Assembly: GCA_003278805.1 (NCBI GenBank) | Contig: QCDC01000004.1 | Location: 1 to 64,000, forward strand | Direction: 5' to 3' | Origin: Pelagibacteraceae bacterium AG-349-L17 | GTDB taxonomy: Bacteria; Pseudomonadota; Alphaproteobacteria; Pelagibacterales; Pelagibacteraceae | DNA: 64,000 nucleotides | Position numbers and translations under genes: made by a program | Part shown: in pieces, positions 22,372 through 61,108 of the stretch | How positions within the stretch are numbered: position 1 is the first letter of the stretch | Layout: each line of letters starts with the position of its first letter | Notes under the pieces: generated by a model | Seen by the model: only the letters and a program-made list of their open reading frames with translations | The model's database searches: none | What the model was told of the DNA's origin: nothing

Positions 22372-22395
22372 TGCGTAAAAATTTAAGTAATTCGA

Positions 22396-22413
22396 AGGGC
22401 CTTTTCAGGCCCT
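22396..22413 (-). terminator. Intercistronic stem-loop between dctP and dctQ
   Basis: A perfect 7-bp stem AGGGCCT/AGGCCCT with a 4-base loop, very GC-rich against this AT-rich background. It starts 13 bases after the dctP stop and ends 24 bases before the dctQ ATG. No U-run follows it in the direction of transcription (TTCGAATTAC), so it looks like a partial terminator or an mRNA-stabilising end that would raise binding-protein expression over the permeases. Two other binding-protein genes in the window have the same arrangement. Confidence 0.65.
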
Positions 22414-22426
22414 CCAAAATATTTTA

Positions 22427-23443
22427 TTACATGATACCGTTAGCTTTCATATAAGCTTTGTGTATCTCGATAAGTGCCGCAGCTTCTGGAGACTTAGTCT
22501 TCCATTCTTCCCAAGCAGCTAGAGCAGCTTGTCTGAATTTAAGTCTGTCTTCTCTAGACCAGTCATGAAGAGTAACGCCCATTTCATTTAAAGCTTTAAC
22601 AGCTTCTGCGTTTTTTCTCTCAACTAAGCTAGTGATAGTTCTTCCAGCAATTTCAATACCTGCTTTCATTGCACCTTTTTCATGAGGCTTTAACTTGTTC
22701 CATACTTTTGTGTTACAAGCTAAGTGGTCAGCTGGCATAGAGTGGAAACCTGGGTATGTAGCATATTTATTTTGCTCATAGTGTCCACCTGCATAGTTAG
22801 TAGCTAAAGATGAATAGTCAGCACCATCAATTAGACCAGTTTGTAAAGCAGTTGGAACTTCACCAAAGTCCATTACGATTGGCTTAGCACCTAATGCTGT
22901 AAAGATCATACTTTCCATTCCTGGAGGTGATCTAAATTTAAAGTCTTTCAATGAAGCAACATCTGGAATTGGTCTGCTAGATATTAAAGACTCGTGTCCT
23001 GGTATCCACCAACCAATTAATGTCATTCCATATTTGTTGTAAAGTGCATCAACAGCATCTTGAGCTCCTGGGAAATTCAAGAATTCGTATTGTTGATATG
23101 GGTTATCATATCCACCCATTACATCACCTGCGAATTGGAATGCTGCATTTTTACCTGTTTGGTAACCTGCACCGGTCATATCACAATCAATAATTCCAGT
23201 TTGTGCAGAGTTAAATACCTCAGCAGATTTACCTGTTACTGATGATGAGTAGAACATTTCTACTTTTAAGCTTCCGCCAGAAAACATTTCAACGTTTTTA
23301 GCGAATTGCGCAGCAACTTCACCATTTGGTGAACTAGCTGTAAAGTGTGTTTCAATTTTTAAAGTCTTTGCATTTGCAGAGCCAAATAAAGCAACTGAAA
23401 CAATAGCTACAGCTGCTATAGTTTTAGATATAAGTTTAAACAT
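22427..23443 (-). CDS. dctP: TRAP transporter periplasmic binding protein (DctP type)
   Basis: A 338-residue exported protein that captures the carboxylate ligand for the DctQM permease. The signal peptide is MFKLISKTIAAVAIVSVALF with cleavage near GSANA. TRAP-type features follow: HFTASSPNGEVAAQFAKNVE, and FKFRSPPGMESMIFTALGAKPI with the ligand-binding arginine, then GEVPTALQTGLIDGAD. A frame opens 14 codons further upstream, but the ATG at 23443 has a good ribosome site (GAGAGGAAG) and gives a proper signal peptide. It leads the TRAP and sugar-acid operon. Confidence 0.93.
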   Translation of the reverse strand: MFKLISKTIAAVAIVSVALFGSANAKTLKIETHFTASSPNGEVAAQFAKNVEMFSGGSLKVEMFYSSSVTGKSAEVFNSAQTGIIDCDMTGAGYQTGKNAAFQFAGDVMGGYDNPYQQYEFLNFPGAQDAVDALYNKYGMTLIGWWIPGHESLISSRPIPDVASLKDFKFRSPPGMESMIFTALGAKPIVMDFGEVPTALQTGLIDGADYSSLATNYAGGHYEQNKYATYPGFHSMPADHLACNTKVWNKLKPHEKGAMKAGIEIAGRTITSLVERKNAEAVKALNEMGVTLHDWSREDRLKFRQAALAAWEEWKTKSPEAAALIEIHKAYMKANGIM

Positions 23444-23554
23444 TATCTTCCTCTCTCGTTTATGTTTTTTCCGAAAGTAAATCATAAATGGTTTTTGAGA
23501 TCAATAATTTCGTCTAACTTTTATATATAGAAATTATATATATTTTCTAAACAG

Positions 23555-23569
23555 ACAACTTATAGTTGT
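23555..23569. promoter_or_regulatory. Perfect dyad in the dctP upstream region
   Basis: ACAACT-TAT-AGTTGT forms a perfect 6-bp dyad just after the stop of the upstream 2-hydroxyacid dehydrogenase gene and about 110 bases before the dctP start. It could be an operator for a regulator of the TRAP operon, or a weak terminator stem of the upstream gene; the sequence after it (CTGTTTAG) is a poor U-run. Nearby, a very AT-rich segment TATATAGAAATTATATATA (23524-23542) could hold the -10 region. Confidence 0.35.
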
Positions 23570-23570
23570 T

Positions 23571-24539
23571 CTAAACTACTTCTGAAATAAGTGGTTTTTT
23601 ATTGAAAAAACAGAAGATATTATCTACTGCCATCATGCTCATGGCTAATCTTGTCTCATGTGTTGCGCTACCGATGTGAGGTAGAACAAAACAATTATCT
23701 AATTTTAAATATCTTTTGTCTAAATTTGGCTCATTATTAAAAACATCTAAACCTGCAGCATAAATTTTTTTATTTTCTAATGCATCTATCAATGCATCGT
23801 CATCAATAGTTGATCCTCTTGAAGTATTAATAACCACCGCATGATTTGGCAGCAAACTTATTGTTGATGAATTAAGAATATGTTTGGTCTCAGCTGTTGC
23901 CGGCGTGTGTATACTTAAAAAGTCACACTCAGGTAGCATAGTTTTAATATCAGAAAAATATTTTGCCCCATCCTCTAAATCATCAGACAGTTTATTTCTG
24001 TTGTAATAAATTATTTTCATCCCAAAAGCTTTAGCACTTTTTGCAGCCATTCTTCCGATACGCCCCATACCAATAATACCTAAAGTTTTACCTGTAACAG
24101 AATTTCCAATCATGAATTTAGTTAAATCTGGTTTTTGATTTTTCCAATTGTCTGCTCTGACTAAATTATAGGCTTCACCAATTCTTCTAGATGCAGCTAA
24201 AATCAAAAGTATTGTAGTTTCAGCCACTGCCTCATTCAACACATCTGGAGTATTTGTTACTTTAATTTTTTTTTCTTCAGCAGATTTAATTGAAATATTA
24301 TCATAACCAACGCCAACTTGAGCTATAATTTTTAATTTCCCATTTAAATTATTAAAAAAGTTTTCACTAATTTTATCAAAACCTGTTGAAATCATTCCAT
24401 CATAATCATTAACCAATTTTATTAATTCGCTTTCTGGAATGGGTTCGTCTTTTGGATTAAGGGTTACTTCAAATTCTTTTTGAAGTTTTTCCTCTGCTAA
24501 ATCTGATATTTTTCTAGAAACTAATATTTTTGGCTTCAT
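23571..24539 (-). CDS. D-isomer-specific 2-hydroxyacid dehydrogenase (glyoxylate/hydroxypyruvate reductase-like)
   Basis: A 322-residue NAD(P) enzyme interconverting 2-keto and 2-hydroxy acids. Features in order are QVGVGYDNISIKSAEE, NEAVAETTILLILAASRR, the cofactor motif GIIGMGRIGRMAAKSAKAFG, the substrate arginine in VVINTSRGS, a catalytic Glu in AAGLDVFNNEPN, and the catalytic His in LPHIGSAT. It matches the glyoxylate reductase group. One base separates it from the dehydratase gene upstream. It may reduce glyoxylate or hydroxypyruvate formed during sugar-acid breakdown. Confidence 0.9.
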   Translation of the reverse strand: MKPKILVSRKISDLAEEKLQKEFEVTLNPKDEPIPESELIKLVNDYDGMISTGFDKISENFFNNLNGKLKIIAQVGVGYDNISIKSAEEKKIKVTNTPDVLNEAVAETTILLILAASRRIGEAYNLVRADNWKNQKPDLTKFMIGNSVTGKTLGIIGMGRIGRMAAKSAKAFGMKIIYYNRNKLSDDLEDGAKYFSDIKTMLPECDFLSIHTPATAETKHILNSSTISLLPNHAVVINTSRGSTIDDDALIDALENKKIYAAGLDVFNNEPNLDKRYLKLDNCFVLPHIGSATHETRLAMSMMAVDNIFCFFNKKPLISEVV

Positions 24540-24540
24540 A

Positions 24541-26325
24541 TTAGTGAGAATCTCTTGGAATGCCTTTAGTATGGGAAATGTCTAAATATTTGCCTCGAGA
24601 ATTAATACATGCACCGTCATCAACTTGGGTTACAGTGTTTCTAAATATTTCCTGCCACGGGGTTTGGTTGTTTATTATAAATTTCTTTCTATTTTTTCTT
24701 CGTTTTTTAAACTCTGCTTGAGATATTAATAGGTCTACCCTTCTTTTATTTAAGTCTATTTTTATTCTGTCATAAGTTTTAACAACTCCTAGATCTCCAC
24801 CTGCTGCAGACTCTGGTGAAACATGTAATATTGAAGGACTAGCTGATGTCCCGCTCTGTCTTCCATCTCCAAGTGTTGGCAGTGTATTAATACCTCTTTT
24901 TAATAGTCTATCAGGTGGTTGCATATTTATTACTTCAGCTGACCCAGGATATCCAATAGGTCCACAGCCTCTAACGATTAGTATTGAATTTTCATCTATT
25001 TTTAATTTCTTATCATTAAGTCTTTTATGATAATCCTCAGGACCTTCAAAAACTATAGCTTTACATTCAAAAGCATTTAGATGTTTAGGATTTGATAAAT
25101 ATCTATCCTTAAATTCTTTACTGATTACAGATGTTTTCATAATAGCAGATGAGAAAAAGTTACTTTTCATAACTAAAAATCCAGCTTTTTCAGTTAAAGC
25201 ATTCTTAAATGTTTTGATTACTTTGTTATCTACAACAACTTTCTTTCTTAAGTTTTCTCCTACAGTTTTTCCTGTAACTGTCTTGATGTTAGTATGAATT
25301 TTTTTGTTTTTAATTAGTTCTTTCATTACCGCAGGTATTGCTCCGGCTCTATGAAAACTTTCCATTAAGTATTCTCCTGCAGGTTGGCAATTCACCAATA
25401 AAGGAATGTTGTGCCCAAGTTTTTGCCAATCAGAAATATCAAATTTAATTCCCATATGTTTAGCTATTGCGCTTAAATGAATTGTGCAATTGCTTGATCC
25501 ACCTATAGCACTAGCAACCACAACTGCATTTTCAAATGCTTTACGTGTCATAATTTTTGATGGGGTTAAATCCTCATGAACCATTCCAACGATTCTTTTT
25601 CCTGTTTCATAAGAAATTTGTTCTCTTTCTCTATAAGGAGCTGGAATTACTGCACCTCCTGGTAAAGACATTCCTAATGCCTCTGCTACAGAGTTCATTG
25701 AAGAGGCTGTTCCCATTGTATTGCAATGACCAACGCTTGGTGCTGAAGATGCAACCATATCCATAAATTCTTCATACTTTATATCGCCTTTTGCTAACAT
25801 TTTTCTTGCTTCCCAAACTACCATTCCTGAACCAGCTAATTTTCCTTTATAAACTCCATCTAACATTGGACCGCCTGATAAAACTATTGCAGGAATGTTT
25901 ACTGTAGCAGCTGCCATTAAAGCTGCTGGAGTAGTTTTATCACATCCTGTTGTTAAGATAACTCCATCAATTGGGTATCCATACAAAACTTCAACTAGTG
26001 ACAAGTAAGAAAGATTTCTATCCAACATTGCTGTTGGTCTTTTTCCAGTTTCTTGAATTGGGTGAGTAGGAAATTCCATTGGTATGCCACCTGCTCTTCT
26101 AATTCCATCTTTTATTCTTTTACTCAAAGACATGAAATGCCTGTTACATGGAGAAAGATCACTGCCAGATTGCGCTATTCCTATAATTGGATTACCAGAT
26201 TGTAATTCTTTTCTTGTAAGACCATAATTTAAATACCTTTCTAGATATAAGGCCGTCATGTCAGGGTTTTTTGGATTATTGAACCACTGTTGACTTCGGA
26301 AACTCTTTTTTCTTTTTTTTGGCAT
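24541..26325 (-). CDS. IlvD/EDD-family sugar-acid dehydratase
   Basis: A 594-residue iron-sulfur dehydratase related to dihydroxy-acid and 6-phosphogluconate dehydratases. Cluster and active-site motifs are visible: LTTGCDKTTPAALMAA, GGPMLDGVYKGK, SVGHCNTMGTASSMN, GSSNCTIHLSAI, and the late GPIGYPGSAEV and TLGDGRQSGTSASPSI. The extra N-terminal FRSQQWFNNP and the overall length fit the pentonate/hexonate dehydratases (L-arabonate, D-xylonate, D-galactonate types) rather than IlvD of branched-chain synthesis. It is divergent from the UxaA-like dehydratase. Confidence 0.88.
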   Translation of the reverse strand: MPKKRKKSFRSQQWFNNPKNPDMTALYLERYLNYGLTRKELQSGNPIIGIAQSGSDLSPCNRHFMSLSKRIKDGIRRAGGIPMEFPTHPIQETGKRPTAMLDRNLSYLSLVEVLYGYPIDGVILTTGCDKTTPAALMAAATVNIPAIVLSGGPMLDGVYKGKLAGSGMVVWEARKMLAKGDIKYEEFMDMVASSAPSVGHCNTMGTASSMNSVAEALGMSLPGGAVIPAPYREREQISYETGKRIVGMVHEDLTPSKIMTRKAFENAVVVASAIGGSSNCTIHLSAIAKHMGIKFDISDWQKLGHNIPLLVNCQPAGEYLMESFHRAGAIPAVMKELIKNKKIHTNIKTVTGKTVGENLRKKVVVDNKVIKTFKNALTEKAGFLVMKSNFFSSAIMKTSVISKEFKDRYLSNPKHLNAFECKAIVFEGPEDYHKRLNDKKLKIDENSILIVRGCGPIGYPGSAEVINMQPPDRLLKRGINTLPTLGDGRQSGTSASPSILHVSPESAAGGDLGVVKTYDRIKIDLNKRRVDLLISQAEFKKRRKNRKKFIINNQTPWQEIFRNTVTQVDDGACINSRGKYLDISHTKGIPRDSH

Positions 26326-26359
26326 AATTTAAATAATGGTTTGTTTAAGTTATTGGTTA

Positions 26360-26371
26360 TATAATAAATTT
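26360..26371 (+). promoter_or_regulatory. TATAAT box immediately before the uxaA-like start
   Basis: A consensus TATAAT lies at 26360-26365, only 6 bases before the ATG at 26372, and no Shine-Dalgarno sequence precedes that ATG. If this box is used, transcription would begin at or next to the A of the start codon, giving a leaderless message. A matching -35 box at ideal spacing is not clear; TTGTTT at 26341 gives only a 13-base spacer. Confidence 0.35.
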
Positions 26372-27877
26372 ATGAATAATCTAATAGTTTTAAACAAGAA
26401 TGACAATGTGGGCGTTAGCCAATTTATTATTCCTGAAAAAACTAAAATTGAAGGTCATGAGATCAGCACTATTGATCCAATCCCTTTTGGACACAAAGTT
26501 TGTTTAAAAACTATTAAAAAAGGTGATCCAATCATAAAATATGATCAAATTATTGGATTTGCTTTAGATGATATTAAACCAGGAGAACATGTTCATTCTC
26601 ATAATTTAGAATTTAGAGAATTTAAAAGAGATTTTAAAGTTACAGACAAAAAACATGTTATTGACGAAAAAGCAGATACGTTCTTTAATGGAATTTTAAG
26701 AGATAATGGACAGGTTGCTACTAGAAATTATATTGGAATTGTAAGCACTGTAAATTGCTCAGCTACTGTCACTAAAATGATAGTTGAGAAGATTAAATAT
26801 TCTGACATTTTAAGAGATTACCCAAATATTGATGGCATAGTTCCAATTACTCACTCAACAGGATGTGGAATGAATACTGAAAGTGAAGGAATGCAAATTT
26901 TTCAAAGAACTATTGATGGATTTAAAAATCATCCCAATTTTTCTCATGTTTTTGTTATAGGTTTAGGATGCGAATGTGCTCAAGTCAGTTTGTTTGATGA
27001 ATCATTAAAAAAACATAACCGAATTCATTTTCTAACAATACAAGATGAAGGTGGAACTAAAAAAATTGTCGAAAAAGTGTTATCTCAAATTAAAAATTTG
27101 CTTTCAGAAGCTAACAATGTTCAAAGAACTTCACAACCAGTAAGTCATCTAACGTTAGCTCTTCAATGTGGTGGTTCAGATGGATATTCAGGAATAACTG
27201 CAAATCCTGCACTAGGAGTTGCAGCAGATCTCTTGGTTAAAAAAGGTGGAAGTTCAATTTTATCCGAAACTCCTGAGATTTATGGAGCTGAACATTTATT
27301 AATTAATAGAGCAAGCTCACAACACACTGCTGATAAACTTATTAAAAGAATTGAATGGTGGAAACATTATACTTCAATAAATAATAGTTCTATGGACAAC
27401 AATCCTGCGCCAGGAAACAAAAAAGGTGGTCTAACAACCATATTAGAAAAATCCTTAGGCGCTGTTGCAAAAGGAGGAAACTCGATCCTTCAAGATGTAT
27501 TGCATTATGCTGAGCCTTTAAAAAATAAAGGTTTTAATTTTATGGACTCTCCTGGTTATGATCCTGTATCTGTAACTGGTCAAGTTGCATCAGGTGCTAA
27601 TGTTATTTGTTTTACAACAGGACGTGGATCTTGCTTTGGTTGTAAACCAGTTCCAAGTTTAAAACTTTCAACAAACTCAGCGATGTTTGAAAGAATGTCA
27701 GAAGATATGGATATTAATTGTGGAACAATTGCTGAAGGAAAAGAAAAAGTTGAAGAAGTTGGTCAAAAAATATTCGAATTAGTTGTAAATACTGCTTCAG
27801 GAAATAAATCGAAAAGTGAAATCAACGGCTACGGTGACGAGGAGTTTAATCCTTGGCAAGTTGGCGTTGTAATGTAA
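26372..27877 (+). CDS. UxaA-family altronate/galactarate dehydratase
   Basis: A 501-residue sugar-acid dehydratase. The N-terminal part, through DDIKPGEHVHSHNLEF, is the small SAF domain, and the main domain contains GILRDNGQVATRNYIGI, THSTGCGMNTESEG, LGCECAQVSLFDE, and the iron-binding cysteines in TTGRGSCFGCKPVPSLKL. It thus holds in one protein the two parts that some bacteria split. The start at 26372 is preferred to the upstream frame at 26336, since only the former begins the conserved domain. Dehydration of a hexonate or hexarate to a 2-keto-3-deoxy acid is the expected reaction. Confidence 0.88.
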   Translation: MNNLIVLNKNDNVGVSQFIIPEKTKIEGHEISTIDPIPFGHKVCLKTIKKGDPIIKYDQIIGFALDDIKPGEHVHSHNLEFREFKRDFKVTDKKHVIDEKADTFFNGILRDNGQVATRNYIGIVSTVNCSATVTKMIVEKIKYSDILRDYPNIDGIVPITHSTGCGMNTESEGMQIFQRTIDGFKNHPNFSHVFVIGLGCECAQVSLFDESLKKHNRIHFLTIQDEGGTKKIVEKVLSQIKNLLSEANNVQRTSQPVSHLTLALQCGGSDGYSGITANPALGVAADLLVKKGGSSILSETPEIYGAEHLLINRASSQHTADKLIKRIEWWKHYTSINNSSMDNNPAPGNKKGGLTTILEKSLGAVAKGGNSILQDVLHYAEPLKNKGFNFMDSPGYDPVSVTGQVASGANVICFTTGRGSCFGCKPVPSLKLSTNSAMFERMSEDMDINCGTIAEGKEKVEEVGQKIFELVVNTASGNKSKSEINGYGDEEFNPWQVGVVM

Positions 27878-27889
27878 TTATTTTTCCCT

Positions 27890-28756
27890 GTGCCTCAACA
27901 AACATCTTTAATTAACGTAATTTTATTAGCCGCTGGTGGTTTTTTTATGTTTGTTTGTATGGACTCTACAGCAAAATATCTTGGAACAGTAATGCCAGTT
28001 ACTCAGGCAATTTGGGGAAGATTTTTTTTTCACTTGTTATCTTTAATTATATTTTTTTTAATTTTTAAGCCAAAAGTAAATTTAAAAAAAAATTTTAAAG
28101 TCCAAATAATTAGATCGATATTAATGGTCACTGCCACCTCATTTATGTTTTATTCTTTACAGAAATTTGACTTGGTAGATATCTATGTTGTTTTCTTTAC
28201 AGCTCCTTTAATTGTTTCACTGCTTTCAGCATACTTTTTGAAAGACATATTAACACCCAAAGGTATACTTTTGATGCTGCTTAGTTTTGGATCAATTATT
28301 TACTCATTAGGGCCAAGTATGAGAATATTTAGTTTAGATTTAATATTCCCTATTATTCCTCCAATTTGCTGGGCTCTTTATCAATTTTTTACCAAAGTTG
28401 TATCAGGCGATAATGATCCATTTGCTGCTATATTTTATACTTCAATTTTAGGTGCAATAATTTTTAGTATTTTTATATTTTTTAATTGGGTGCCTTTAGA
28501 AAAAAATATCTTTTGGCTTTATTTAGTAATTCTTGGTGTGGCAGGTTTTGTAAGTCATTCTTTGATTATATACGCAATACAACTTTCTAATTTGTCATTT
28601 GTAACTAATTTTCAATACTCACAATTAGTTTGGTCTACAATTATTAATTTCTTAATTTTTGGTGTACCGTTTGATTATAATAAAATTGTCGGTGTAATAG
28701 GAATTATTGTTTTTGGTATAATGTTCATAAGAACAGAGGGTAAAAAGAAAAGTTAA
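27890..28756 (+). CDS. DMT/EamA-family transporter
   Basis: A 288-residue inner-membrane protein with ten helices in two EamA repeats. It starts at a GTG 12 bases after the dehydratase stop. The first repeat has GGGFF-like AAGGFFMFVCMDSTAKYLG and TQAIWGRFFFH, and the second starts near PPICWALYQFFTKVVSG. Such transporters usually export or import small metabolites. Its place between sugar-acid dehydratase and dehydrogenase genes suggests a metabolite of that pathway, but the substrate is unknown. Confidence 0.85.
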   Translation: MPQQTSLINVILLAAGGFFMFVCMDSTAKYLGTVMPVTQAIWGRFFFHLLSLIIFFLIFKPKVNLKKNFKVQIIRSILMVTATSFMFYSLQKFDLVDIYVVFFTAPLIVSLLSAYFLKDILTPKGILLMLLSFGSIIYSLGPSMRIFSLDLIFPIIPPICWALYQFFTKVVSGDNDPFAAIFYTSILGAIIFSIFIFFNWVPLEKNIFWLYLVILGVAGFVSHSLIIYAIQLSNLSFVTNFQYSQLVWSTIINFLIFGVPFDYNKIVGVIGIIVFGIMFIRTEGKKKS

Positions 28757-28770
28757 ATAGTGAGGTTTAA

Positions 28771-29628
28771 ATGAAAAATATTGGTTTTATTGGTGTTGGG
28801 TATATGGGCTATGGAATAGCTAAAAATATTTTAAAACATAAAAATAAGCTTTTTGTCATTGCTAATAAAAATAGAAAACCAATTGAGAAAATTGTCAGCG
28901 ATGGAGCTGAAGAAGTAAAATCTTTTGAAGACTTTTCTATTAAAAATTTAGATGCAATGTTTATGTGTGTTACCAACACTCCTATAGCGAAATTAATTTC
29001 TGAAAAAATATCTGAAATTTTAGATAGTAAAACTTTAATTATTGATGTCACCACTCACAACAAAACTGGCTCAATCGAAACTGAGGAAATATTCAAAGCA
29101 AAAAATATTAATTATGTTGAATGTCCTGTAATGGGAGGACCTGTTCAAGCAGAGGAAGGTATATTAGGAGGAATTGTTGGAGCGTCAGATGAAAATTTTA
29201 AAATTGCTGAACCATACTTTAATTTTTTCTGTAAAGAATATTTTCATTTTGGACCTGTTGGTATGGGAGCAAAATCTAAGCTTTTAAATAATTTTTTATC
29301 CCTTGGAAATGCTGCATTAGTTAATCATTTGGCTAAAAGTGCTACAGAAATGGGTTTAGATTTAAAAAAAGTATTTGATGTTGCAAAACTTGGTTCTGGA
29401 AATTCTGCAGCACTCAATAGAGTTTTTGACAATCTTTTAAAAGGTGATTTTACTGGATTTAAATTTACAGCAAGTAATTCTGTAAAAGATTTAACTTATA
29501 TTCAAGACTTGTTAAAAGATTTTCCTGAAGCTGAAAAAGTTGCTGAAGTAAATAAAAATTATTTTCAAAAAGCTGTTGATGACGGTTACGGTGAAAATTT
29601 TATTAGTGAATTAATAAATAAAAAATAA
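28771..29628 (+). CDS. NAD(P)-dependent beta-hydroxyacid dehydrogenase, second copy
   Basis: A 285-residue member of the 3-hydroxyisobutyrate/tartronate-semialdehyde reductase family. The cofactor motif is GFIGVGYMGYGIAKNI, the substrate loop is YVECPVMGGPVQAEEG, and the catalytic lysine is in GAKSKLLNNF. It resembles the enzyme at 19.6-20.5 kb in design but differs clearly in sequence, so the two probably have different substrates. It follows the transporter by 14 bases and is the last gene on the plus strand before a possible RNA gene. Confidence 0.85.
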   Translation: MKNIGFIGVGYMGYGIAKNILKHKNKLFVIANKNRKPIEKIVSDGAEEVKSFEDFSIKNLDAMFMCVTNTPIAKLISEKISEILDSKTLIIDVTTHNKTGSIETEEIFKAKNINYVECPVMGGPVQAEEGILGGIVGASDENFKIAEPYFNFFCKEYFHFGPVGMGAKSKLLNNFLSLGNAALVNHLAKSATEMGLDLKKVFDVAKLGSGNSAALNRVFDNLLKGDFTGFKFTASNSVKDLTYIQDLLKDFPEAEKVAEVNKNYFQKAVDDGYGENFISELINKK

Positions 29629-29732
29629 TTTTGGAAGTAACTTAAGTTAGCGGGAATCTACTAAAGTACTAGGTTGTATTCAATAAATATATTTGCTCAA
29701 AATTAAAATAAATTAATTGAAATTGTTTTATT

Positions 29733-29908
29733 TATAATTACCTTTTTTATAGAAGGAGGTTTATGTTAATACTTTCACCACCTGATACTTAGCTGAACAG
29801 CTCATATTTCAAAAATATAACGAAAAATAAATTCCTCTCGGAATTATAATGCCAAAGAGGCGATACAAGGGAGCTCTTTAGGTATACACTTAAAGAGCGA
29901 ACCCTTTA
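29733..29908 (+). ncRNA. Candidate structured small RNA between convergent genes
   Basis: A consensus TATAAT (29733-29738) stands between two genes that both end here, so it cannot be a promoter of either. Downstream come an AGGAGGT site (29754-29760) that can pair with ACCACCT (29777-29783 in the window, one A-A mismatch), a stem ATATTT/AAATAT (29804-29818), a stem CCTCT/AGAGG with inner GG/CC (29834-29860), and a 13-bp stem AAGGG+GCTCTTTA/TAAAGAGC+CCCTT (29867-29906) whose loop holds the palindrome GTATAC. No U-run terminator follows. I do not recognise a known RNA family. Confidence 0.4.
29763..29792 (+). CDS. Nine-codon reading frame with a strong ribosome site
   Basis: ATG to TAG encodes MLILSPPDT, preceded by AAGGAGGT only 2 bases before the ATG, closer than usual. 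Its Ser-Pro-Pro codons contribute CACCACCT, which mimics the anti-Shine-Dalgarno sequence and can pair with the site in front of it. It could be a leader peptide, a tiny protein or an accidental part of a structured RNA. No gene follows on this strand before 30916, so a classic attenuator is unlikely. Confidence 0.25.
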   Translation: MLILSPPDT

Positions 29909-29912
29909 AAAA

Positions 29913-30440
29913 CTAATTTACAGATTTTAATATTTCTAGTGGAAGTAGAGCTTCTGGGTATTTTTTTTGACACAACTTTTCGTAGTTTTCACAAAAACTC
30001 AAAATAGTTTTTTGAACTTCTTTTTTATTTTTATTTGAAAAATTAAGGTCTTTAATTAATTCACTGCAATTTTTTTCTAATTCTTTTATTTGCTCTCCTG
30101 AAAAAAATTCTCCTGTTTCTATTTCCCAATAAGTGTCATCAAGCTCATCATCAGTTAAATCATTTAATTTTTTCTGTAATAATTTAATAGTTTCGTCCTC
30201 TGTTACTTTATCTCTCATGGGAGAATTCTTAAGTTTCCCAAGGCATTTATCTCTTAATCCATCAATAAAATGAAAATAAGGTTTACCCTCTGAAAAATCT
30301 CTAAAATGATTTGTGTTAAAATATTTATCAATAGCTGTTTCTGTTGAAACCTTCTCTTTGCCCTTAATAATAGCTATCTGAACATATACTTCCTGGCTAA
30401 TATATTCTTCAATATGATCTTTAACTTTTTGAGGTATCAT
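29913..30440 (-). CDS. Hypothetical cytosolic protein
   Basis: A 175-residue helical, charged protein with no signal peptide or membrane segment. The front half contains PYFHFIDGLRDKCLGKLKNSPM, the middle is acidic (LNDLTDDELDDTYWEIETGEFFSG), and four cysteines are spread out (DKCLG, KNCSEL, SFCENY, LCQKKY). I recognise no family. It lies 13 bases after the cytochrome c' gene on the same strand, so it probably shares its transcript. Confidence 0.65.
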   Translation of the reverse strand: MIPQKVKDHIEEYISQEVYVQIAIIKGKEKVSTETAIDKYFNTNHFRDFSEGKPYFHFIDGLRDKCLGKLKNSPMRDKVTEDETIKLLQKKLNDLTDDELDDTYWEIETGEFFSGEQIKELEKNCSELIKDLNFSNKNKKEVQKTILSFCENYEKLCQKKYPEALLPLEILKSVN

Positions 30441-30453
30441 TCTTACTTAATAA

Positions 30454-30921
30454 CTAATGTTCTTCTCTGTACCTGCTGTGACAAGCCTTACAATTACTCC
30501 ACATAAATTGTTTCAGAGTGCCTCTTATATCTTCAGCATCTTCAATTACAGATGTAAGTTTTATCATATCATCAGAGGCTTTTTGCATTAATGCATTAAA
30601 ATCATCTTTTTCATCCCAAATTGTCAGTAAAGCTTCAGTATCAAAACCCTCTTGAGTATTTTCAGGAAATAGATCTATTAAAACTTTATAATTTTCACTC
30701 ATTTCTATCATAAGTTTTTTTGCTTTTTCAAAATCTCCTTTTGAAGAGAAAGCCTGAACCCTTTTAGCTGTACTATAGTTTTTACTAAATAATGCTTGTC
30801 TACTTTTAATAATATCTTCAACTGTCAACTCAGCATTGGAAGATGAGACGAAAAATACGCTTAAAATTGAGAATAAAATTATTTTAATATATTTTTTTAT
30901 GTGATTAAATAAATTATGCAT
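30454..30921 (-). CDS. Cytochrome c' (class II c-type cytochrome)
   Basis: A 155-residue periplasmic protein. The signal peptide is about residues 1-30 (IKIILFSILSVFFVSSSNA before ELTVED). The mature part is a helical bundle beginning VEDIIKSRQALFSKN and ending with the heme site NCKACHSRY close to the C-terminus, which is the class II layout. Such proteins bind NO or CO or carry electrons. It is divergent from cytochrome b561, and the two start codons meet in the palindrome ATGCAT, so the two heme proteins are likely partners. Confidence 0.87.
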   Translation of the reverse strand: MHNLFNHIKKYIKIILFSILSVFFVSSSNAELTVEDIIKSRQALFSKNYSTAKRVQAFSSKGDFEKAKKLMIEMSENYKVLIDLFPENTQEGFDTEALLTIWDEKDDFNALMQKASDDMIKLTSVIEDAEDIRGTLKQFMWSNCKACHSRYREEH

Positions 30922-31443
30922 GTAACAAATACCCTAACAGAGTATGGCATTATCTCAAAGGTGTTACATTGGCTCAGCGCAGCTATTCTATTCACACAAA
31001 TACCTTTGGGTTTTTATTTAGTTGATTTAGATTTTGGTGATCAAAGAATAACTATTGAAGATATACATGTTACGTTAGGTTTAACTGTGTTTTATATTAT
31101 AATAATTAGATTAATAAATAATATACTTAATCCAACTCCAAAATTAGATCCAAGTATTTTTAAAGGACAAAGGTTTCTTGCAAAGATGAACCATGTTCTT
31201 TTATATGTTGCTATTTTATCAATAACAATTTCAGGAATATTAAAAAAATTATTTAATGGGGAAACATTAACAATATTGTTTAGAGAAATTCAAATAAATG
31301 AAAATTTTGATTTAGCAGATCAGTTTTATGAAATTCATATTCTTTCAAATTATACCCTTATCGGTTTAATAGTGATTCATATATCTGCTGTTATTGTTCA
31401 CAAACTATTTTTTGGAGACAATTTATTAAAAAGAATTCTTTAA
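30916..31443 (+). CDS. Cytochrome b561-type diheme membrane protein
   Basis: A 175-residue four-helix inner-membrane protein. The heme histidines are visible in LHWLSAAILF (helix 1), IHVTLGLTVFY (helix 2), and the paired HILSNYTLIGLIVIHISAVIVHKLF (helices 3-4). It likely passes electrons between quinol and a periplasmic acceptor; the divergent cytochrome c' is an obvious candidate. The ATG at 30916 overlaps nothing but the c' start codon, leaving no room for a ribosome site outside the other gene. Confidence 0.87.
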   Translation: MHVTNTLTEYGIISKVLHWLSAAILFTQIPLGFYLVDLDFGDQRITIEDIHVTLGLTVFYIIIIRLINNILNPTPKLDPSIFKGQRFLAKMNHVLLYVAILSITISGILKKLFNGETLTILFREIQINENFDLADQFYEIHILSNYTLIGLIVIHISAVIVHKLFFGDNLLKRIL

Positions 31444-31445
31444 TC

Positions 31446-31889
31446 TTAATGACAAGCAATTCCAAATTTTTTTAATCTCCAATAATTATAAGGCCAAGGA
31501 GTTAAAAAACCTACAATCAGCATTATTGGCACCACCCACCATGTTAAAATTGCACCGCCAGTTAAAACATAGTCAGTTAAATTCATCATAATTTCCATGC
31601 TAATCATTGAAATTAAACTCATTCCACAAGCAGTTTTGAATGCGTTAACAAAATTAAAATTTTGTGTTATTAAAATTATTGTTTCTAAAATAATACTTGT
31701 AATCAATCCATTGATAATTGCTAAAATCATTATTCCTAAAATAGGAAAAGGAGTTTGAGTTAATTGAAAAAATAATATTGTTCCAAAGTCTCCAATAGCA
31801 CAACCTAATACACACCAAGCTGTATTTTTTGCGCTTCTTTTCCAAGTATGCTTACAAGACCAATGAAATGTAGCAGTAGAGGTATTCAC
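31446..31889 (-). CDS. DUF4396 family membrane protein
   Basis: A 147-residue protein with four hydrophobic helices. FHWSCKHTWKRSAKNTAWCVLGCAIGDFGT, then METIMMNLTD-like SMEIMMNLTDYVLTGG and the closing WWVVPIMLIVGFLTPWPYNYWRL, match DUF4396, sometimes near copper or heme proteins. Histidines and cysteines at the first helix could bind a metal. The function is unknown. It converges on b561 with a 2-base gap and is divergent from the ETHE1-like gene. Confidence 0.8.
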   Translation of the reverse strand: MNTSTATFHWSCKHTWKRSAKNTAWCVLGCAIGDFGTILFFQLTQTPFPILGIMILAIINGLITSIILETIILITQNFNFVNAFKTACGMSLISMISMEIMMNLTDYVLTGGAILTWWVVPIMLIVGFLTPWPYNYWRLKKFGIACH

Positions 31890-31911
31890 AATAATTTGAT
31901 AATAATAAAAA

Positions 31912-32595
31912 ATGATTTTTAAACAAGTATTTGATCAAAAATCGTCTACTTATACTTATTTAATTGCTTCGGCGAAAGGTCGCGAAGCAGTCATAATTGA
32001 TCCAGTAATTGATAATGTTGAAAACTACATTAAGTTACTTCATGAATTAGATTTAAAACTAGTTAAAGTAATAGATACTCATATTCATGCTGACCATGTA
32101 ACTGGTGCAAGTAAACTCAAGCAAGCAACAAATTGTTCTACACTTATGGGAGAGCACACACCTGCCGATGCTGTAGAAATCAAAATAAAAGATGAAGAAA
32201 TAATTAAAATTGATCAAATTGAAATTAAAGCGATGTATACACCAGGTCATACCTCAGATAGTTATAGTTTCTTGATGGATAAATATTTATTTTCGGGAGA
32301 TACCCTTTTAATTAATGGAACAGGTAGGACAGATTTTCAAAATGGTAGCTCAAAAGATGCTTATAATTCTTTATTTAATAAATTGCTTAAACTACCTGAT
32401 GATACTTTGCTTTATCCAGGGCATGACTATAATGGAAAACTATCTAGTACTATCGGTAAAGAAAAAGAACATAACCCAAGATTACAAGTGGAAAATGTAG
32501 ATCAGTACATTGAAATTATGTCTAATTTAAATTTATCGAAACCACAAATGATAGATCAAAACATATCTAGAAACCTTAAGCTTGGAAAAATATAA
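31912..32595 (+). CDS. Metallo-beta-lactamase-fold hydrolase, ETHE1/persulfide dioxygenase-like
   Basis: A 227-residue enzyme. It has the metal motif DTHIHADHVTGASKL (H-x-H-x-D-H), TPGHTSDSYSFLMD and FSGDTLLINGTGRTDFQNGS, the last being the ETHE1 signature, and YPGHDYNGKLSSTIGKEKEHNP near the end. ETHE1 enzymes use a single iron to oxidise glutathione persulfide to sulfite; here that reaction is inferred. Cytosolic. The start sits 22 bases from the divergent DUF4396 gene. Confidence 0.87.
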   Translation: MIFKQVFDQKSSTYTYLIASAKGREAVIIDPVIDNVENYIKLLHELDLKLVKVIDTHIHADHVTGASKLKQATNCSTLMGEHTPADAVEIKIKDEEIIKIDQIEIKAMYTPGHTSDSYSFLMDKYLFSGDTLLINGTGRTDFQNGSSKDAYNSLFNKLLKLPDDTLLYPGHDYNGKLSSTIGKEKEHNPRLQVENVDQYIEIMSNLNLSKPQMIDQNISRNLKLGKI

Positions 32596-32606
32596 TAAAA
32601 TTTTAA

Positions 32607-32654
32607 GGAGAGGCAAATAACATAAAAATGGGAGAGGTATGTTTTTGCCCCTCT
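32607..32654 (+). terminator. Long stem-loop after the ETHE1-like gene
   Basis: Starting 11 bases after the stop, an inner 6-bp stem AACATA/TATGTT continues, after one bulged T, into AAACGG-type pairing GGAGaGGCAAA/TTTGCCcCTCT with one mismatch, about 16 bp in all. The loop is AAAATGGGAGAGG. Three Ts and then As follow. It is the likely terminator of the upstream gene and, read the other way (CCTTAAAATTTTA), could also serve the convergent azlD transcript. Confidence 0.65.
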
Positions 32655-32659
32655 TTAAA

Positions 32660-32740
32660 AAAGGCATGAGTAATAAACTAAGATAGAGATAATTAATTAA
32701 AGAGATTTATATAAATTAATTAATCTTTTCTTATGCCTTT
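32660..32740. repeat. Second inverted repeat in the same gap
   Basis: AAAGGCAT (32660-32667) pairs with ATGCCTTT (32733-32740), and inside it ATTAATTAA (32692-32700) pairs with TTAATTAAT (32716-32724). It lies next to the first stem-loop between two convergent genes. The 241-base gap holds no reading frame I can support. It may be a back-to-back terminator pair or part of an RNA. Confidence 0.5.
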
Positions 32741-32836
32741 CTCAAAATCTATATAATTAAATTTCATCAAAACAGATATTTTTAAAGTAAGATTTTTGTA
32801 CAGTAAGTTAACACTATTAAGAAAAAATAAGTTAAG

Positions 32837-33148
32837 CTAAAAAACAAATATGATTAACCAATAAGACAAGAGACCAGAGAATATAGTCGCAATAACATTT
32901 TTTGAAAAATAACCCACAATAACTGCAACTAATGCACCAAAAATTTTTGGATCATTGATTTCAATAAAAGTTCCGAAATCATTTATAAATATTCCTGGAA
33001 ATATTATTGCTGGAAATACTGCTGAAGGAACATATTCCAACACTGCTTTAATTTTATCTCCCAACATATCTCTATTTATTAAAGCAATCATAGTCATTCT
33101 AGTAAAGTAAGTTAATATTCCAGCAAAAATTATTGCAGCAAGAGTCAT
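32837..33148 (-). CDS. azlD: AzlD-type branched-chain amino acid exporter small subunit
   Basis: A 103-residue membrane protein with four short helices. ILTYFTRMTMIALINRDMLGD and VLEYVPSAVFPAIIFPGIF are the AzlD signature (the R-x-x-P-type front and the VP-AV-A loop). It works with AzlC to export branched-chain amino acids or their analogues. Its start overlaps azlC by 4 bases. It is the last gene of the iron-transport transcript. Confidence 0.88.
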   Translation of the reverse strand: MTLAAIIFAGILTYFTRMTMIALINRDMLGDKIKAVLEYVPSAVFPAIIFPGIFINDFGTFIEINDPKIFGALVAVIVGYFSKNVIATIFSGLLSYWLIIFVF

Positions 33149-33831
33149 TTTTTTAACCTCAATAATAATGCAGCAACGAACAAAGCAATTATTGGCGAAA
33201 TAATTACGTAAGATTTAAATGGAGCATCAAAAAATAACAGTGAACTTAAACCACAAGTAATCATAACAATTACATGATCTAATTTTTTTAAATCTTGAAC
33301 AACAATTGCTATAAACGTTAGCGGAATTGCAAATTTTAACCCAAGTTCTTCTGGAACAAATGAACCTAAAACAATACCTGATAAGGTTGCAATTTGCCAA
33401 CAGACCCACATTGTGCAACCAGTACCAATTAAATGATAATGTAAAAATTCTTCATTTCTATTTTTTTTGAAAAATTTATTAGACTCAGCAAATCCTTGAT
33501 CTACAACAACATAAGAAATTAATAATTTTTTTAAAAAAGATAATTTTTCTAAATATTCAGATAAAACTGCTCCATATAATAAGTGTCGAGAATTTATAAT
33601 ACCAACAGAAGCAACCGCTACTAAACTAGATGCACCTCCTGATAGCAATTGTAAAAAAACTATTTGTGAAGCTCCTCCAAAAATAATGAAAGACATTGTG
33701 TAGACCAAATATGGATGAAATCCAAGTTCAACCCCGATTGCTCCACAAATTATTCCAAACGGAATTACTGAAAGCATATGTGGAGAAATATCTAACATCC
33801 CTCGAGTAAATAGTTGTTTTTTAGTAAACAT
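33145..33831 (-). CDS. azlC: AzlC-type branched-chain amino acid exporter large subunit
   Basis: A 228-residue protein with about six helices. RGMLDISPHMLSVIPFGIICGAIGVELGF and FGGASQIVFLQLL are the typical first half, and NSRHLLYGAVLSEYL and VVDQGFAES follow. The family (YgaZ in E. coli) exports valine and related amino acids. It starts 12 bases after the iron ABC ATPase gene on the same strand; the pairing with iron genes is unusual and may be only a shared transcript. Confidence 0.9.
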   Translation of the reverse strand: MFTKKQLFTRGMLDISPHMLSVIPFGIICGAIGVELGFHPYLVYTMSFIIFGGASQIVFLQLLSGGASSLVAVASVGIINSRHLLYGAVLSEYLEKLSFLKKLLISYVVVDQGFAESNKFFKKNRNEEFLHYHLIGTGCTMWVCWQIATLSGIVLGSFVPEELGLKFAIPLTFIAIVVQDLKKLDHVIVMITCGLSSLLFFDAPFKSYVIISPIIALFVAALLLRLKK

Positions 33832-33843
33832 TTGCTTGTTTTA

Positions 33844-36523: not shown

Positions 36524-36539
36524 TTTTACCCTTTTGTTC

Positions 36540-36590
36540 AAGTGAACATAATCAATAGTAGGGTAAATAACTATTGAGTTATGTTCACTT
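36540..36590 (-). terminator. Very strong stem-loop before fbpB
   Basis: Arms AAGTGAACATAA and TTATGTTCACTT pair perfectly over 12 bp, continue through T-A, and then CAATAGT/ACTATTG adds 7 bp, giving a 20-bp stem with one bulged G and a 10-base loop. It starts 8 bases after the stop of the 64-residue gene and ends just before the fbpB ribosome site. On the coding strand no U-run follows, so partial termination or protection of the upstream fbpA message is more likely than full termination. Confidence 0.75.
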
Positions 36591-36598
36591 TTTGAAAA

Positions 36599-36793
36599 TT
36601 AACTTTTTAAATCAAAAACATTAATGACACGATCAATATCATCATTTTCGATCTCAGATAATTTTCTATTATTTATTTTTTTTTTAATTTTTTCACATTG
36701 TGACAAGCATGGCTCACAAGTTATCTGACCCTCTGGAGAACCATTATTGCCTGGAGAAATGTCTAAATTAAAATTAAATAAATTTTTTTTCAC
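36599..36793 (-). CDS. Small cysteine-containing protein in the iron-transport operon
   Basis: A 64-residue protein beginning at a GTG with the ribosome site AAGGAA overlapping the fbpA stop. It has no signal peptide; the middle reads SPGNNGSPEGQITCEPCLSQ, then CEKIKKKI, so three cysteines lie in a CxxCxxxC cluster, followed by a charged helix. I recognise no family. Position between fbpA and fbpB suggests a role in iron handling or sensing (cluster or Zn binding), which is inference. The close spacing and ribosome site support a real gene. Confidence 0.65.
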   Translation of the reverse strand: MKKNLFNFNLDISPGNNGSPEGQITCEPCLSQCEKIKKKINNRKLSEIENDDIDRVINVFDLKS

Positions 36794-36799
36794 TTTTCC

Positions 36800-37828: not shown

Positions 37829-37855
37829 TTTATCCTTTTCTTTACCCTTATTGAT

Positions 37856-37900
37856 TTGCGAATGAGAATTATTCTTAATGCGAATGATTATCAATCGCAT
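37856..37900 (-). promoter_or_regulatory. Fur-like iron operator upstream of fbpA
   Basis: Read toward fbpA, the segment contains TGATAATCATTCGCATT followed by AAGAATAATTCTCATTCGC. The first part is close to the GATAATGATAATCATTATC consensus of ferric uptake regulators, and the second is another imperfect hexamer array with an AGAATAATTCT palindrome. Two overlapping or adjacent sites fit iron-responsive repression of the fbp operon. In alphaproteobacteria Irr or RirA could also act here. Confidence 0.65.
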
Positions 37901-37951
37901 ATTTTGTCGCAGAAAACAAGGACTTTTTAATGCTATTTATAGAGGAAATTG

Positions 37952-39840: not shown

Positions 39841-39841
39841 T

Positions 39842-40450: not shown

Positions 40451-40527
40451 AGTGCCTTTTTATACAGTAAATACCTCAATTTAAAAATATTTAATATATT
40501 TAGATATGTGCTACATAATCACCCCGT

Positions 40528-41370: not shown

Positions 41371-41371
41371 T

Positions 41372-59769: not shown

Positions 59770-59771
59770 TT

Positions 59772-59802: not shown

Positions 59803-59962
59803 GAATTAATTAAAGCTAAATTTTTACGATTCTCTGATTATGATTTGTTGAAATACAGTTTTACAATTTAAAATGTAAACAAATTCTTTGAAAAAAAAAT
59901 TTGCAGAAAATTTCATGATTAAACCTTATCTCTTAATAAATGGTATTTAAAGACAATTTGAC

Positions 59963-59979
59963 TTCAACTAAAAGTTGAA
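59963..59979. promoter_or_regulatory. Dyad in the betaine transporter promoter region
   Basis: TTCAACT-AAA-AGTTGAA is a perfect 7-bp dyad 67 bases upstream of the binding-protein ATG, in the 276-base divergent gap. It is sized like a regulator half-site pair or an RNA stem. No other protein frame is supported in this gap. Confidence 0.35.
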
Positions 59980-60045
59980 AAATATTTGCAATCTTTTCAT
60001 CGATATGTTGTAGTGTTAAATCGAAAATTAACTAACGGAGATATA

Positions 60046-61056
60046 ATGAAAAAATTAAAAACAATTCTATTTTCTGCGCTTTTAGCATTCGGCGTGACTT
60101 CTTTCGCAAATGCTTGTGGAAAATTAGTTATAGCCGAACAAAACTGGGCATCTGCCGAGTTAATGGCAAACGTTGATAAAATCATTCTCGAAGAAGGATA
60201 TGGATGTGACGTAGAATTAGTACCTGGTGCTACTATGCCTACATTTACTTCAATGAATGATAAAGGAACACCTGACATGAACCCTGAGCAATGGGCGAAT
60301 GCGGTTTATACTCCTTTAAAAAAAGCGGTAAGTGAAAAAAGATTAATTATTGCAAATAAAGCCCCAATTACAGGTCTTGGAGAAGGTTGGTGGTTAAATC
60401 CAGCAGCTTTAGAAAAACATCCAGAACTTAAAGGAATGACAGCTGTTCAAATTTTAGAACGTCCAGATTTGTTTCCAGATAAAGAGGACCCATCAAAAGG
60501 TGCTTTCATGGGATGTCCAGCAGGTTGGGGATGTCAATTAGCTAATGCAAATTTGTACAGAGCATTTGAAATGGAAAAAAAAGGTTGGAAGCTTATTGAT
60601 CCAGGTTCAGCTGCAGGTTTAGATGGTTCAATTGCTAAAGCGTCAGATTCTGGTGAGCCGTGGTTTGGATATTATTGGAACCCTACATCAATGGTTGGAA
60701 AATATAATTTACAGCCAGTTGATTTTGGTGTTCCTTTTGCAGGCAGAGATAATTGGGACAATTGTATCACTCTTGCAGAACAAGATTGTGCAAATCCAAA
60801 GCCAACAGCTTGGACAAAATCTGAAGTTAACTCAATTGTAAGTGCTAACTTTGCTAAAACTGGTGGAAAAGATGTGCTAAAATATGTTGAAAGCAGAACT
60901 TTTCCAGGCACAGTAATGAATGGAATGTTAGTTTACATGGCTGACAACCAAGCAAAAGGTTCTGATGCTGCTGTTGAGTTTTTAATAAAGCATGAAGATA
61001 TTTGGACTAAGTGGGTATCTTCAGATGCTGCAAAAAAAATCAAAAAAAGTTTATAA
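60046..61056 (+). CDS. Glycine betaine/proline-type ABC transporter substrate-binding protein (ProX/OpuAC family)
   Basis: A 336-residue exported protein. From the ATG at 60046 the signal peptide is LKTILFSALLAFGVTSFANA; an in-frame start 20 codons earlier has no ribosome site and spoils the signal, while ACGGAGAT precedes 60046. ProX-class traits: KLVIAEQNWASAELMANVDK, LVPGATMPTFTSMND, EGWWLNPAAL, and a tryptophan-rich cage (GWGCQLANANL, PWFGYYWNPTSM) suited to trimethylammonium binding. Likely ligand glycine betaine or a related osmolyte. Confidence 0.88.
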   Translation: MKKLKTILFSALLAFGVTSFANACGKLVIAEQNWASAELMANVDKIILEEGYGCDVELVPGATMPTFTSMNDKGTPDMNPEQWANAVYTPLKKAVSEKRLIIANKAPITGLGEGWWLNPAALEKHPELKGMTAVQILERPDLFPDKEDPSKGAFMGCPAGWGCQLANANLYRAFEMEKKGWKLIDPGSAAGLDGSIAKASDSGEPWFGYYWNPTSMVGKYNLQPVDFGVPFAGRDNWDNCITLAEQDCANPKPTAWTKSEVNSIVSANFAKTGGKDVLKYVESRTFPGTVMNGMLVYMADNQAKGSDAAVEFLIKHEDIWTKWVSSDAAKKIKKSL

Positions 61057-61067
61057 TTAACTTTTAA

Positions 61068-61096
61068 TTACGAGCCTATATTAAATAGGCTCGTAA
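61068..61096 (+). terminator. Intercistronic stem-loop between binding protein and permease
   Basis: A perfect 12-bp stem TTACGAGCCTAT/ATAGGCTCGTAA with a 5-base loop begins 11 bases after the binding-protein stop and ends 12 bases before the permease ATG. A short AATTTAAT tail follows rather than a true U-run. It resembles the stem-loops before fbpB and dctQ and should favour excess binding-protein message over permease message. Confidence 0.7.
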
Positions 61097-61108
61097 AATT
61101 TAATATTT

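Follow-up and report, generated by a model that had tools for sequence, protein, structure and literature searches.

Hairpins behind the binding-protein genes of a SAR11 genome probably allow far more binding protein than membrane pump to be made from one operon

Three transporter junctions in the window

The window analysed here, the first 64,000 nucleotides of contig QCDC01000004.1 of Pelagibacteraceae bacterium AG-349-L17, contains three junctions between a solute-binding protein (SBP) gene and permease genes, the only ones seen within it, and each carries an RNA-type hairpin:

20484–21800, − strand: dctM, large permease (PF06808)
21802–22371, − strand: dctQ, small permease (PF04290)
22391–22418, − strand: stem 1, hairpin 8 nt 3′ of the dctP stop, without U-run; 7-bp core at 22396–22413
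22427–23485, − strand: dctP, TRAP solute-binding protein (Pfam PF03480, E 1.9e-43; NCBIfam TRAP_S1 above cut-off)
34895–36523, − strand: two-domain ABC permease, FbpB-like (PF00528 at two places)
36525–36532, − strand: AGGGUAAA, directly 5′ of the fbpB ATG (36523–36521), complementary to the stem 2 loop
36541–36589, − strand: stem 2, long bulged hairpin 3′ of orf64 with a 10-nt loop, without U-run
36560–36567, − strand: UUUACCCU in the stem 2 loop, complementary to 36525–36532
36599–36793, − strand: orf64, small 64-aa ORF separating the SBP gene from the hairpin (no family in Pfam or NCBIfam)
36800–37900, − strand: SBP_bac_6 (FbpA/AfuA-like) binding protein (PF13343)
59986–61056, + strand: OpuAC-type binding protein (PF04069, E 2.5e-43)
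61068–61096, + strand: stem 3, perfect 12-bp hairpin without U-run, 11 nt downstream of the SBP stop codon, 12 nt upstream of the permease ATG
61109–61993, + strand: ABC permease, ProW/ChoW type (PF00528, E 1.5e-26)

Folding recovered all three stems reported by the first-pass annotation (22396–22413, 36540–36590 and 61068–61096), and their sequences are indeed unrelated. Its remark that none has a good U-run also holds, the 8 nt behind stems 1, 2 and 3 containing 3, 2 and 4 T, respectively; the value for stem 2 was read by eye from the 8 nt past the last G–C pair (TTGAACAA), the scripted count of 5 having fallen within the bulged stem. The flanking genes are DctP/DctQ/DctM, SBP_bac_6/64-aa ORF/two-domain permease and OpuAC/permease as proposed, except that the label "iron" for the second set is not confirmed, the NCBIfam matches of its SBP (to 2-aminoethylphosphonate and other SBP models) all lying under cut-off.

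The core of stem 1 (AGGGCCT-GAAA-AGGCCCT, 22396–22413, − strand) extends to 12 pairs including 2 G·U over 22391–22418, and at −20.1 kcal/mol is the best fold of 46 nt. Stem 2 pairs 36541–36559 with 36570–36589 (− strand) around one bulge at −22.6 kcal/mol, while stem 3 has 12 perfect pairs and a 5-nt loop (−17.6 kcal/mol) and, with a score of 29, outranks every other ungapped hairpin in the window. A gene-internal stem at 4655–4683 scores 28 in the same scan, and none of five first-order Markov copies of the window reaches 28; stems 1 and 2 fall under this level because of their G·U pairs and bulge. Rfam returned no match over the gathering threshold in the whole window. A promoter/terminator scan of positions 21001–41000 flagged neither junction there, since it demands a U-run; it listed 9 terminator-like sites, where shuffled sequence gives 7.7. 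Stem 3 is separated from the next ATG by only 12 nt (61097–61108). No promoter fits into that space, and expression of the permease must rely on read-through or on a promoter situated farther upstream.

Hairpins at SBP gene ends across the genome

Recognising SBP genes by neighbouring permeases, signal peptides and Pfam, we found 24 in 383 kb, and every one has behind it a strong hairpin, at −13 kcal/mol or lower (a cut-off picked after the values were seen; fbpA is credited with the hairpin that follows its small ORF). Queried with the 24 SBPs, phmmer gave no further SBP among 398 proteins; one had surfaced by chance, so others may be missed, and a cut SBP (L170) is uncounted. In the stretches read, all 16 junctions classed as SBP>permease have a hairpin at this level, and the other recognised SBP genes bring the tally to 24/24, as compared to 2/34 of the other co-directional gaps of at least 40 nt, 0/14 of those of 15–40 nt, 4/144 of shorter ones and 6/68 gene ends that meet a gene on the opposite strand (one of these six turned out to be an SBP gene); these controls come mainly from transporter-rich stretches, with genes taken as mechanical ORFs. 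In five stretches selected without regard to transporter content, 6 of 105 ends reach −13 or better, two overlapping rRNA or tRNA and two lying within coding sequence. Of the 22 strong GC hairpins that a strict scan of 383,356 bases yielded, 18 lie at the 3′ end of an SBP gene; one Markov copy gave 2. The enrichment recurs in the permease neighbourhoods of three related genomes, where a hairpin follows 8/9, 5/6 and 5/5 SBP ends (18/20) and 1/30, 2/26 and 1/23 other ends (4/79). One weakly called SBP, at locus L230 of one of these genomes (G012), has none.

The hairpin lies 8–26 nt downstream of the SBP stop in 22 of the 24 cases and is also present where the SBP gene precedes an opposite-strand gene, an ABC ATPase gene (by sequence) or a MORN-protein gene. 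Among the best 30 fbp loci, four have a different gene directly 5′ of fbpB and no such hairpin there. As it occurs behind SBPs with no permease next and is absent where another gene precedes fbpB, the hairpin goes with the 3′ end of the SBP gene and not with the start of the permease gene. The earlier suggestion of a common device at a shared position in unrelated transporters stands, with the site moved from the permease start to the end of the SBP gene, or of the SBP gene plus small ORF.

The missing U-run of the three window stems is not typical: 17 of the 24 hairpins have at least 6 T among the 8 nt that follow the GC core and 7 have at most 5. Both SBP genes preceding an opposite-strand gene (L139 17640 and L141 7738) have full U-runs, and some tails are A-rich. 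Stem length across the 24 is 9–16 pairs, with the bulged fbp stem counted only in part. Only 10 of 290 pairs are G·U, so the stems are nearly all Watson–Crick. Compared side by side, the 24 stems are all unrelated and share no repeat sequence.

Conservation in relatives

The betaine-type hairpin is present in all 30 of the best 30 loci (own genome included) and is retained in 80/80 named Pelagibacteraceae loci (the best 80 of 250), a set overlapping the former; throughout, relatives' loci are the best 30 per search. The first-pass annotation had named compensatory base changes beforehand as its test, and at this junction they are found, with changes on both sides at 10 of the 12 pairs in 20 sequences spanning two families. 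In this alignment 93.9% of cells are paired versus 69.5% when shuffled, and the covariation score is 0.681 versus 0.233 shuffled and at most 0.141 slid. Two of the five measures are weak: pairs with both-sided changes (10 vs 7.3, equalled in 20/500 shuffles) and further pair types (18 vs 18.4). The 20 sequences come from the 30 loci minus L014, L016, L018, L020, L021, L023, L025, L028, L033 and L034, some being duplicates, though not L014, L018 and L028. At most 5 T are present in the 8 nt behind the core in 22 of 28 betaine-type junctions (a count that omitted L014, L018, L079 and L091), the hairpin being kept while the U-run varies at the same junction. The hairpin is present in L014, L018 and L091; L079 has no comparable one 3′ of its SBP (best fold −12.3). 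Other lineages have different stems at this position.

The dctP hairpin occurs in 7/7 orthologous junctions (L065–L071, own genome counted), and covariation among these seven very similar sequences gave nothing significant. In other Alphaproteobacteria only 6 of 21 junctions upstream of DctQ reach z ≤ −3; this set comprises 25 of the best 30 loci, less three without an upstream ORF and our own genome, with the upstream ORFs taken as presumptive DctP genes, and the gene borders of L192 and L205 doubtful.

Among the best 30 fbp loci, 23 have a hairpin of −15 or lower within 110 nt 5′ of fbpB, three (L041, L054 and L055) have a large one farther upstream, and four (L038, L046, L052 and L053) have none ahead of fbpB. 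Small ORFs resembling orf64 were seen by eye in relatives. A 7–8-nt match between the hairpin loop and the region just before or at the fbpB start, noticed by eye ahead of the test on RNAfold stems, is found in 6 of the 23 hairpins where shuffling predicts 0.37, and it occurs in two covarying versions. A version with ungapped stems, which missed bulged ones, gave a mean loop-to-downstream complementarity of 3.5 versus 3.47 shuffled. FbpA genes of the f2 family at one stage appeared to have no hairpin, a reading we rejected when longer windows revealed a stem too long for the 46-nt window: −21.3 to −22.7 at L164, L172 and L173, a weaker −17.0 at L163, −21.8 to −23.5 in further folds of six loci, and −32.4 at L185 in a 90-nt window (L169 was left out of the longer-window folding).

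Parallels and possible function

Hairpins at SBP ends are known from other bacteria, and look near-universal in this SAR11 genome. A close parallel is the internal terminators of ABC-importer operons in cellulolytic Clostridia, which, according to PMC9045158 (2022), are likewise single stem-loops without antiterminator between the SBP gene and the translocator genes. There, partial termination of 20.7–96.1% was measured in reporter transcripts of one species, and transcript ratios were also measured, whereas the SAR11 hairpins are known from sequence alone. The same study describes these terminators as poorer in U than canonical ones and as having longer GC stems. The SAR11 hairpins differ from the Clostridial type as there described in also following TRAP and tripartite tricarboxylate SBPs, as well as SBPs with no transport gene behind them, and in that 7/24 have no U-run. 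Conserved intergenic hairpins are likewise among the candidate structured RNAs of 'Ca. Pelagibacter ubique', one of which lies near rhtB/liv genes and has a possible terminator (PMC2704228); that study, as excerpted, chose long, relatively GC-rich intergenic regions and describes no SBP-gene rule. The excerpted text of a Sinorhizobium sRNA survey (PMC2873474) holds nothing relevant to SBP-end hairpins. Searches of the open literature, judged by titles and abstract openings and with most subscription journals outside their scope, turned up no paper describing such hairpins for SAR11.

The REP element between malE and malF of E. coli has been proposed to stabilise the upstream mRNA. It too is a hairpin between binding-protein and permease genes, but REP is one repeated sequence, and the SAR11 stems differ from junction to junction. 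The GC-rich hairpin and, in 17/24 cases, the U-run are features in common with canonical intrinsic (Rho-independent) terminators; the difference is that most SAR11 hairpins lie inside operons and that the three window stems are U-less. Very abundant binding proteins are a known trait of SAR11 cells, whose streamlined genomes have little room for regulation.

We posit, with a probability of roughly 0.7, that the hairpins are partial terminators and 3′-end barriers that raise the SBP:permease ratio, so that one operon probably yields binding protein in large excess over membrane pump. Once the SBP stop codon is transcribed, a GC-rich RNA hairpin would fold downstream and become the 3′ end of a short, abundant binding-protein mRNA. 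Part of the polymerases may halt at it, the 17/24 with a U-run looking like ordinary intrinsic terminators; or a longer mRNA may be cleaved and then shortened as far as the hairpin, which would then block 3′–5′ exonucleases. The latter is probably the main route for the U-less hairpins, including those of the window, where intrinsic termination is doubtful because there is no U-run. A minority of transcripts would continue into the permease genes, giving much more SBP than permease from a single promoter. We infer both the termination or protection and the expression ratio from analysis of the sequence. At roughly 30 nt, such a hairpin would set the ratio of binding protein to pump in a compact, heritable manner in some of the ocean's most numerous cells, and the rule predicts gene-by-gene drops of RNA depth in metatranscriptomes, which is testable without culturing.

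That the hairpins act purely as partial intrinsic terminators, releasing RNA polymerase and merely weaker where U-less, falls a little short of an even chance. It would explain the U-runs, including those of both SBP genes facing an opposite-strand gene, and the Clostridial terminators are U-poorer and longer-stemmed than canonical ones (PMC9045158); against it stand the U-poor 7/24 and 22/28 betaine-type junctions, the A-rich tails, and a U-run that comes and goes at one junction while the hairpin stays. This last feature, the near-complete Watson–Crick pairing that favours stability, and stems starting near the stop codon are what pure 3′-end protection would predict, the mRNA being processed or Rho-terminated downstream and the hairpin stopping exonucleases as at malE–malF; yet this plausible, if somewhat less probable, alternative leaves the 17/24 U-runs unexplained, and no processing site is known here. 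Translation control of the downstream gene, the stem hiding or freeing its ribosome-binding site, agrees with the loop matches at fbpB, but is improbable as a general account, with hairpins also behind SBP genes preceding an opposite-strand gene and no loop match in 17 of the 23 fbp hairpins. Least likely are DNA-level palindromes (operators, bidirectional terminators or mobile REP-like repeats): the inverted repeats are near-perfect with very few G·U pairs, and the loop of L005 is the reverse complement of that in its close relatives L006 and L007, but the 24 junctions have no common sequence, lie on the 3′ side of SBP genes, and bear different stems in other lineages.

Beyond partial termination and 3′-end protection, a broader and tentative extension is that hairpins at gene ends mark abundance throughout the SAR11 genome, most gene ends being bare and strong hairpins lying almost only behind SBPs and a small number of other genes whose products are probably abundant. 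Hairpins lacking a U-run might then form a class of 3′ end that works without one, and in certain lineages the fbp hairpin may have gained a loop pairing with the fbpB ribosome-binding region, joining ratio setting to translational control.

Hairpins at the ends of binding-protein genes

The three stem-loops that the first-pass annotation placed between solute-binding protein (SBP) and permease genes, as a means of setting the ratio of the two products, are borne out in existence and position by the sequence read at each site, and Pfam supports the SBP/permease nature of all three operons. The TRAP stem starts 8 nt downstream of the dctP stop, the fbp stem is placed 3′ of orf64, and the betaine-type stem runs from 11 nt past the SBP stop to 12 nt ahead of the permease ATG. 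Substrates are not fixed by NCBIfam, whose matches to the fbp SBP, earlier labelled "iron", are all sub-threshold.

36599-36793 (-): orf64, a 64-aa ORF with a CxxC motif, between the SBP gene and the hairpin

SBP genes near permeases, identified by Pfam, were then sampled in 15 stretches beyond the window (assembly of 1,216,121 bases in 25 contigs), each gene end being scored by its most stable 46-nt fold between 5 nt before and 85 nt after the stop, with −13 kcal/mol or better as a pass. All 16 junctions classed as leading from an SBP to a permease pass, as do seven of the eight rows of the other SBP class, in which the next genes code for TctB- and DctQ-type subunits, an ATPase-like protein, a MORN protein or unrelated products. 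One of these seven is orf64, and the sole failing row is fbpA itself, whose hairpin stands after orf64; counting fbpA via orf64 and one further SBP gene that turned up among the controls, 24/24 SBP genes recognised in these stretches of the SAR11 genome possess a hairpin. Among its control ends, passes amount to 2/34 for co-directional genes with gaps of 40 nt or more, 0/14 for gaps of 15–40 nt, 4/144 for shorter gaps and 6/68 for ends facing an opposite-strand gene, one of these six, with a −20.5 hairpin, being an SBP gene missed at first. Five stretches picked without regard to transporters yield 6/105 ends, two overlapping rRNA or tRNA and two within coding sequence. A strict scan of 383,356 bases recovers 22 strong GC hairpins (18 at SBP 3′ ends, three elsewhere intergenic and one in a gene), as compared to two in a single Markov copy of the same bases; 18/22 is not a genome-wide fraction, transport genes being over-represented in the sample, and the scan misses 6/24 SBP hairpins that are too short, bulged or G·U-bearing.

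Other gene-end hairpins (in the stretches read, L139:11663-11686, L222:6912-6937 and L223 after 3416) lie after the genes for an outer-membrane barrel protein, a sodium:solute symporter and rubrerythrin, which may likewise be abundant.

Conservation and covariation across relatives

The betaine-type SBP shows up to 99% identity with its nearest database records, which are Pelagibacteraceae single-cell genomes and MAGs. Its hairpin is present in 30/30 best loci from a search of 81 genomes, own locus included, and in 80/80 loci of Pelagibacteraceae database records (best 80 of 250, overlapping the former set), which comprise 41 distinct hairpin sequences. Across these 80 the core GAGCCTA is nearly constant and the loop variable; in more distant relatives the whole stem is replaced. 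The compensatory changes across SAR11 that the first-pass annotation had put forward as a check are seen here: in a 20-sequence alignment, 93.9% of cells are paired and both sides have changed in 10/12 pairs, with a covariation score of 0.681 versus 0.233 shuffled and at most 0.141 slid. Weaker measures are unremarkable alone, the number of pairs with both-sided change being reached in 20/500 shuffles and that of further pair types in 351/500. RNAalifold predicts the same stem with 10 pairs. G·U pairs are nearly absent from the stems, with one UG cell in the alignment, 10/290 in the genome's own pairs and 10/531 in the 41 distinct hairpins.

The betaine-type stem ranks top in the window in an ungapped Watson–Crick scan; second is a perfect 12-bp inverted repeat with a 5-nt loop at 4655-4683 (+), in the ORF 4591-5181. 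The loop at 61080-61084, ATTAA, appears as its reverse complement TTAAT in two loci (L006 and L007) with unchanged arms, a possible loop inversion. Further on, the betaine-type operon contains a short, MTHFR-like gene and one of the GcvT family. The top NCBIfam match of the GcvT-family gene, on partial sequence and below cut-off, is DMSP demethylase; hence, DMSP as well as betaine is a possible substrate. A separate 9-bp GC hairpin comes after this gene (62777-64000 and L134:146-169).

In PF00528 permease neighbourhoods of three related genomes, hairpins occur at 8/9, 5/6 and 5/5 SBP ends and at 1/30, 2/26 and 1/23 other ends; the two SBP misses are an FbpA (L185), whose stem needs a window longer than 46 nt, and a weak SBP call (L230). 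TRAP junctions have a hairpin in 29/30 loci (best 30 of the search), a count that takes in paralogous systems whose stems are quite dissimilar, the sole exception being L079; seven close orthologs, very much alike, show no significant covariation. Six of 21 DctQ-upstream junctions sampled from other Alphaproteobacteria fold with unusual stability (z −3 or less; gene borders doubtful in two); the device may exist outside SAR11, and is not the rule among these junctions.

Of the best 30 fbp loci, 23 have a hairpin within 110 nt of fbpB, three have a larger one farther upstream, and in the remaining four a different gene immediately precedes fbpB, with no hairpin at that place. One of these four genomes, G003, instead has a strong hairpin (−25.9) 181 nt past the SBP gene. 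Thus, the hairpin goes with the SBP: the shared placement first proposed stands, but its tie to the permease start does not.

The hairpin as a probable transcript boundary

Also where the next gene has no role in transport, the hairpin lies 3′ of the SBP stop, and therefore it would serve the SBP mRNA. At most junctions the permease is close behind; the spacing of only 12 nt at the betaine-type junction means that some polymerases must pass, unless the SBP gene contains a promoter. The U-runs vary, with 6–8 T in 8 nt following 17/24 SBP hairpins of this genome and five or fewer following 7/24; at betaine-type junctions 6/28 have six or more T and 22/28 do not, the hairpin being always kept. 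Together, the placement, the need for read-through and the retention of hairpins with uneven U-runs point to a conserved role as the 3′ boundary of the SBP transcript. With a U-run, this boundary would be made by partial intrinsic termination; at U-less hairpins it would probably arise by trimming back to the hairpin.

The REP element between malE and malF offers a parallel to these hairpins. In Clostridia, one study describes internal terminators formed by stem-loops 3′ of SBP genes, with efficiencies of 20.7–96.1%, links transcript stability to folding energy, and proposes that such terminators also occur in E. coli and beyond (PMC9045158). Both effects, termination and stability, are reported for the Clostridial stems; the mechanism in SAR11 is inferred. 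Beyond the published cases, SAR11 displays near-complete use of SBP-end hairpins, their occurrence in ABC, TRAP and tripartite tricarboxylate systems alike, and a U-less share.

The fbp hairpin, its loop and orf64

By eye, small ORFs resembling orf64 were noted in many relatives; orf64 has no family in Pfam or NCBIfam. G007 (L158) and G012 (L162) showed no such ORF, and there the hairpin is directly 3′ of the SBP gene.

Longer hairpins, often with larger loops, characterise the fbp junctions. In 6/23 loci, own included, 7–8 nt at the fbpB start, or immediately ahead of it, match the loop, versus 0.37 expected per shuffle. The matches come in two versions that covary, UUUACCC/GGGUAAA and UAUUACCC/GGGUAAUA. 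As the six loci represent about four lineages with shared ancestry and the match was noticed before the test, pairing of the loop with the fbpB start region is a lead only. In the own hairpin, loop 36560-36567 (-) is complementary to 36525-36532 (-), directly ahead of the fbpB start. At two loci 3′ of FbpA (L172 and L173), the hairpin 3′ arm ACCTCAA could alternatively pair with TTGAGGT ahead of the next gene, which would make two competing hairpins.
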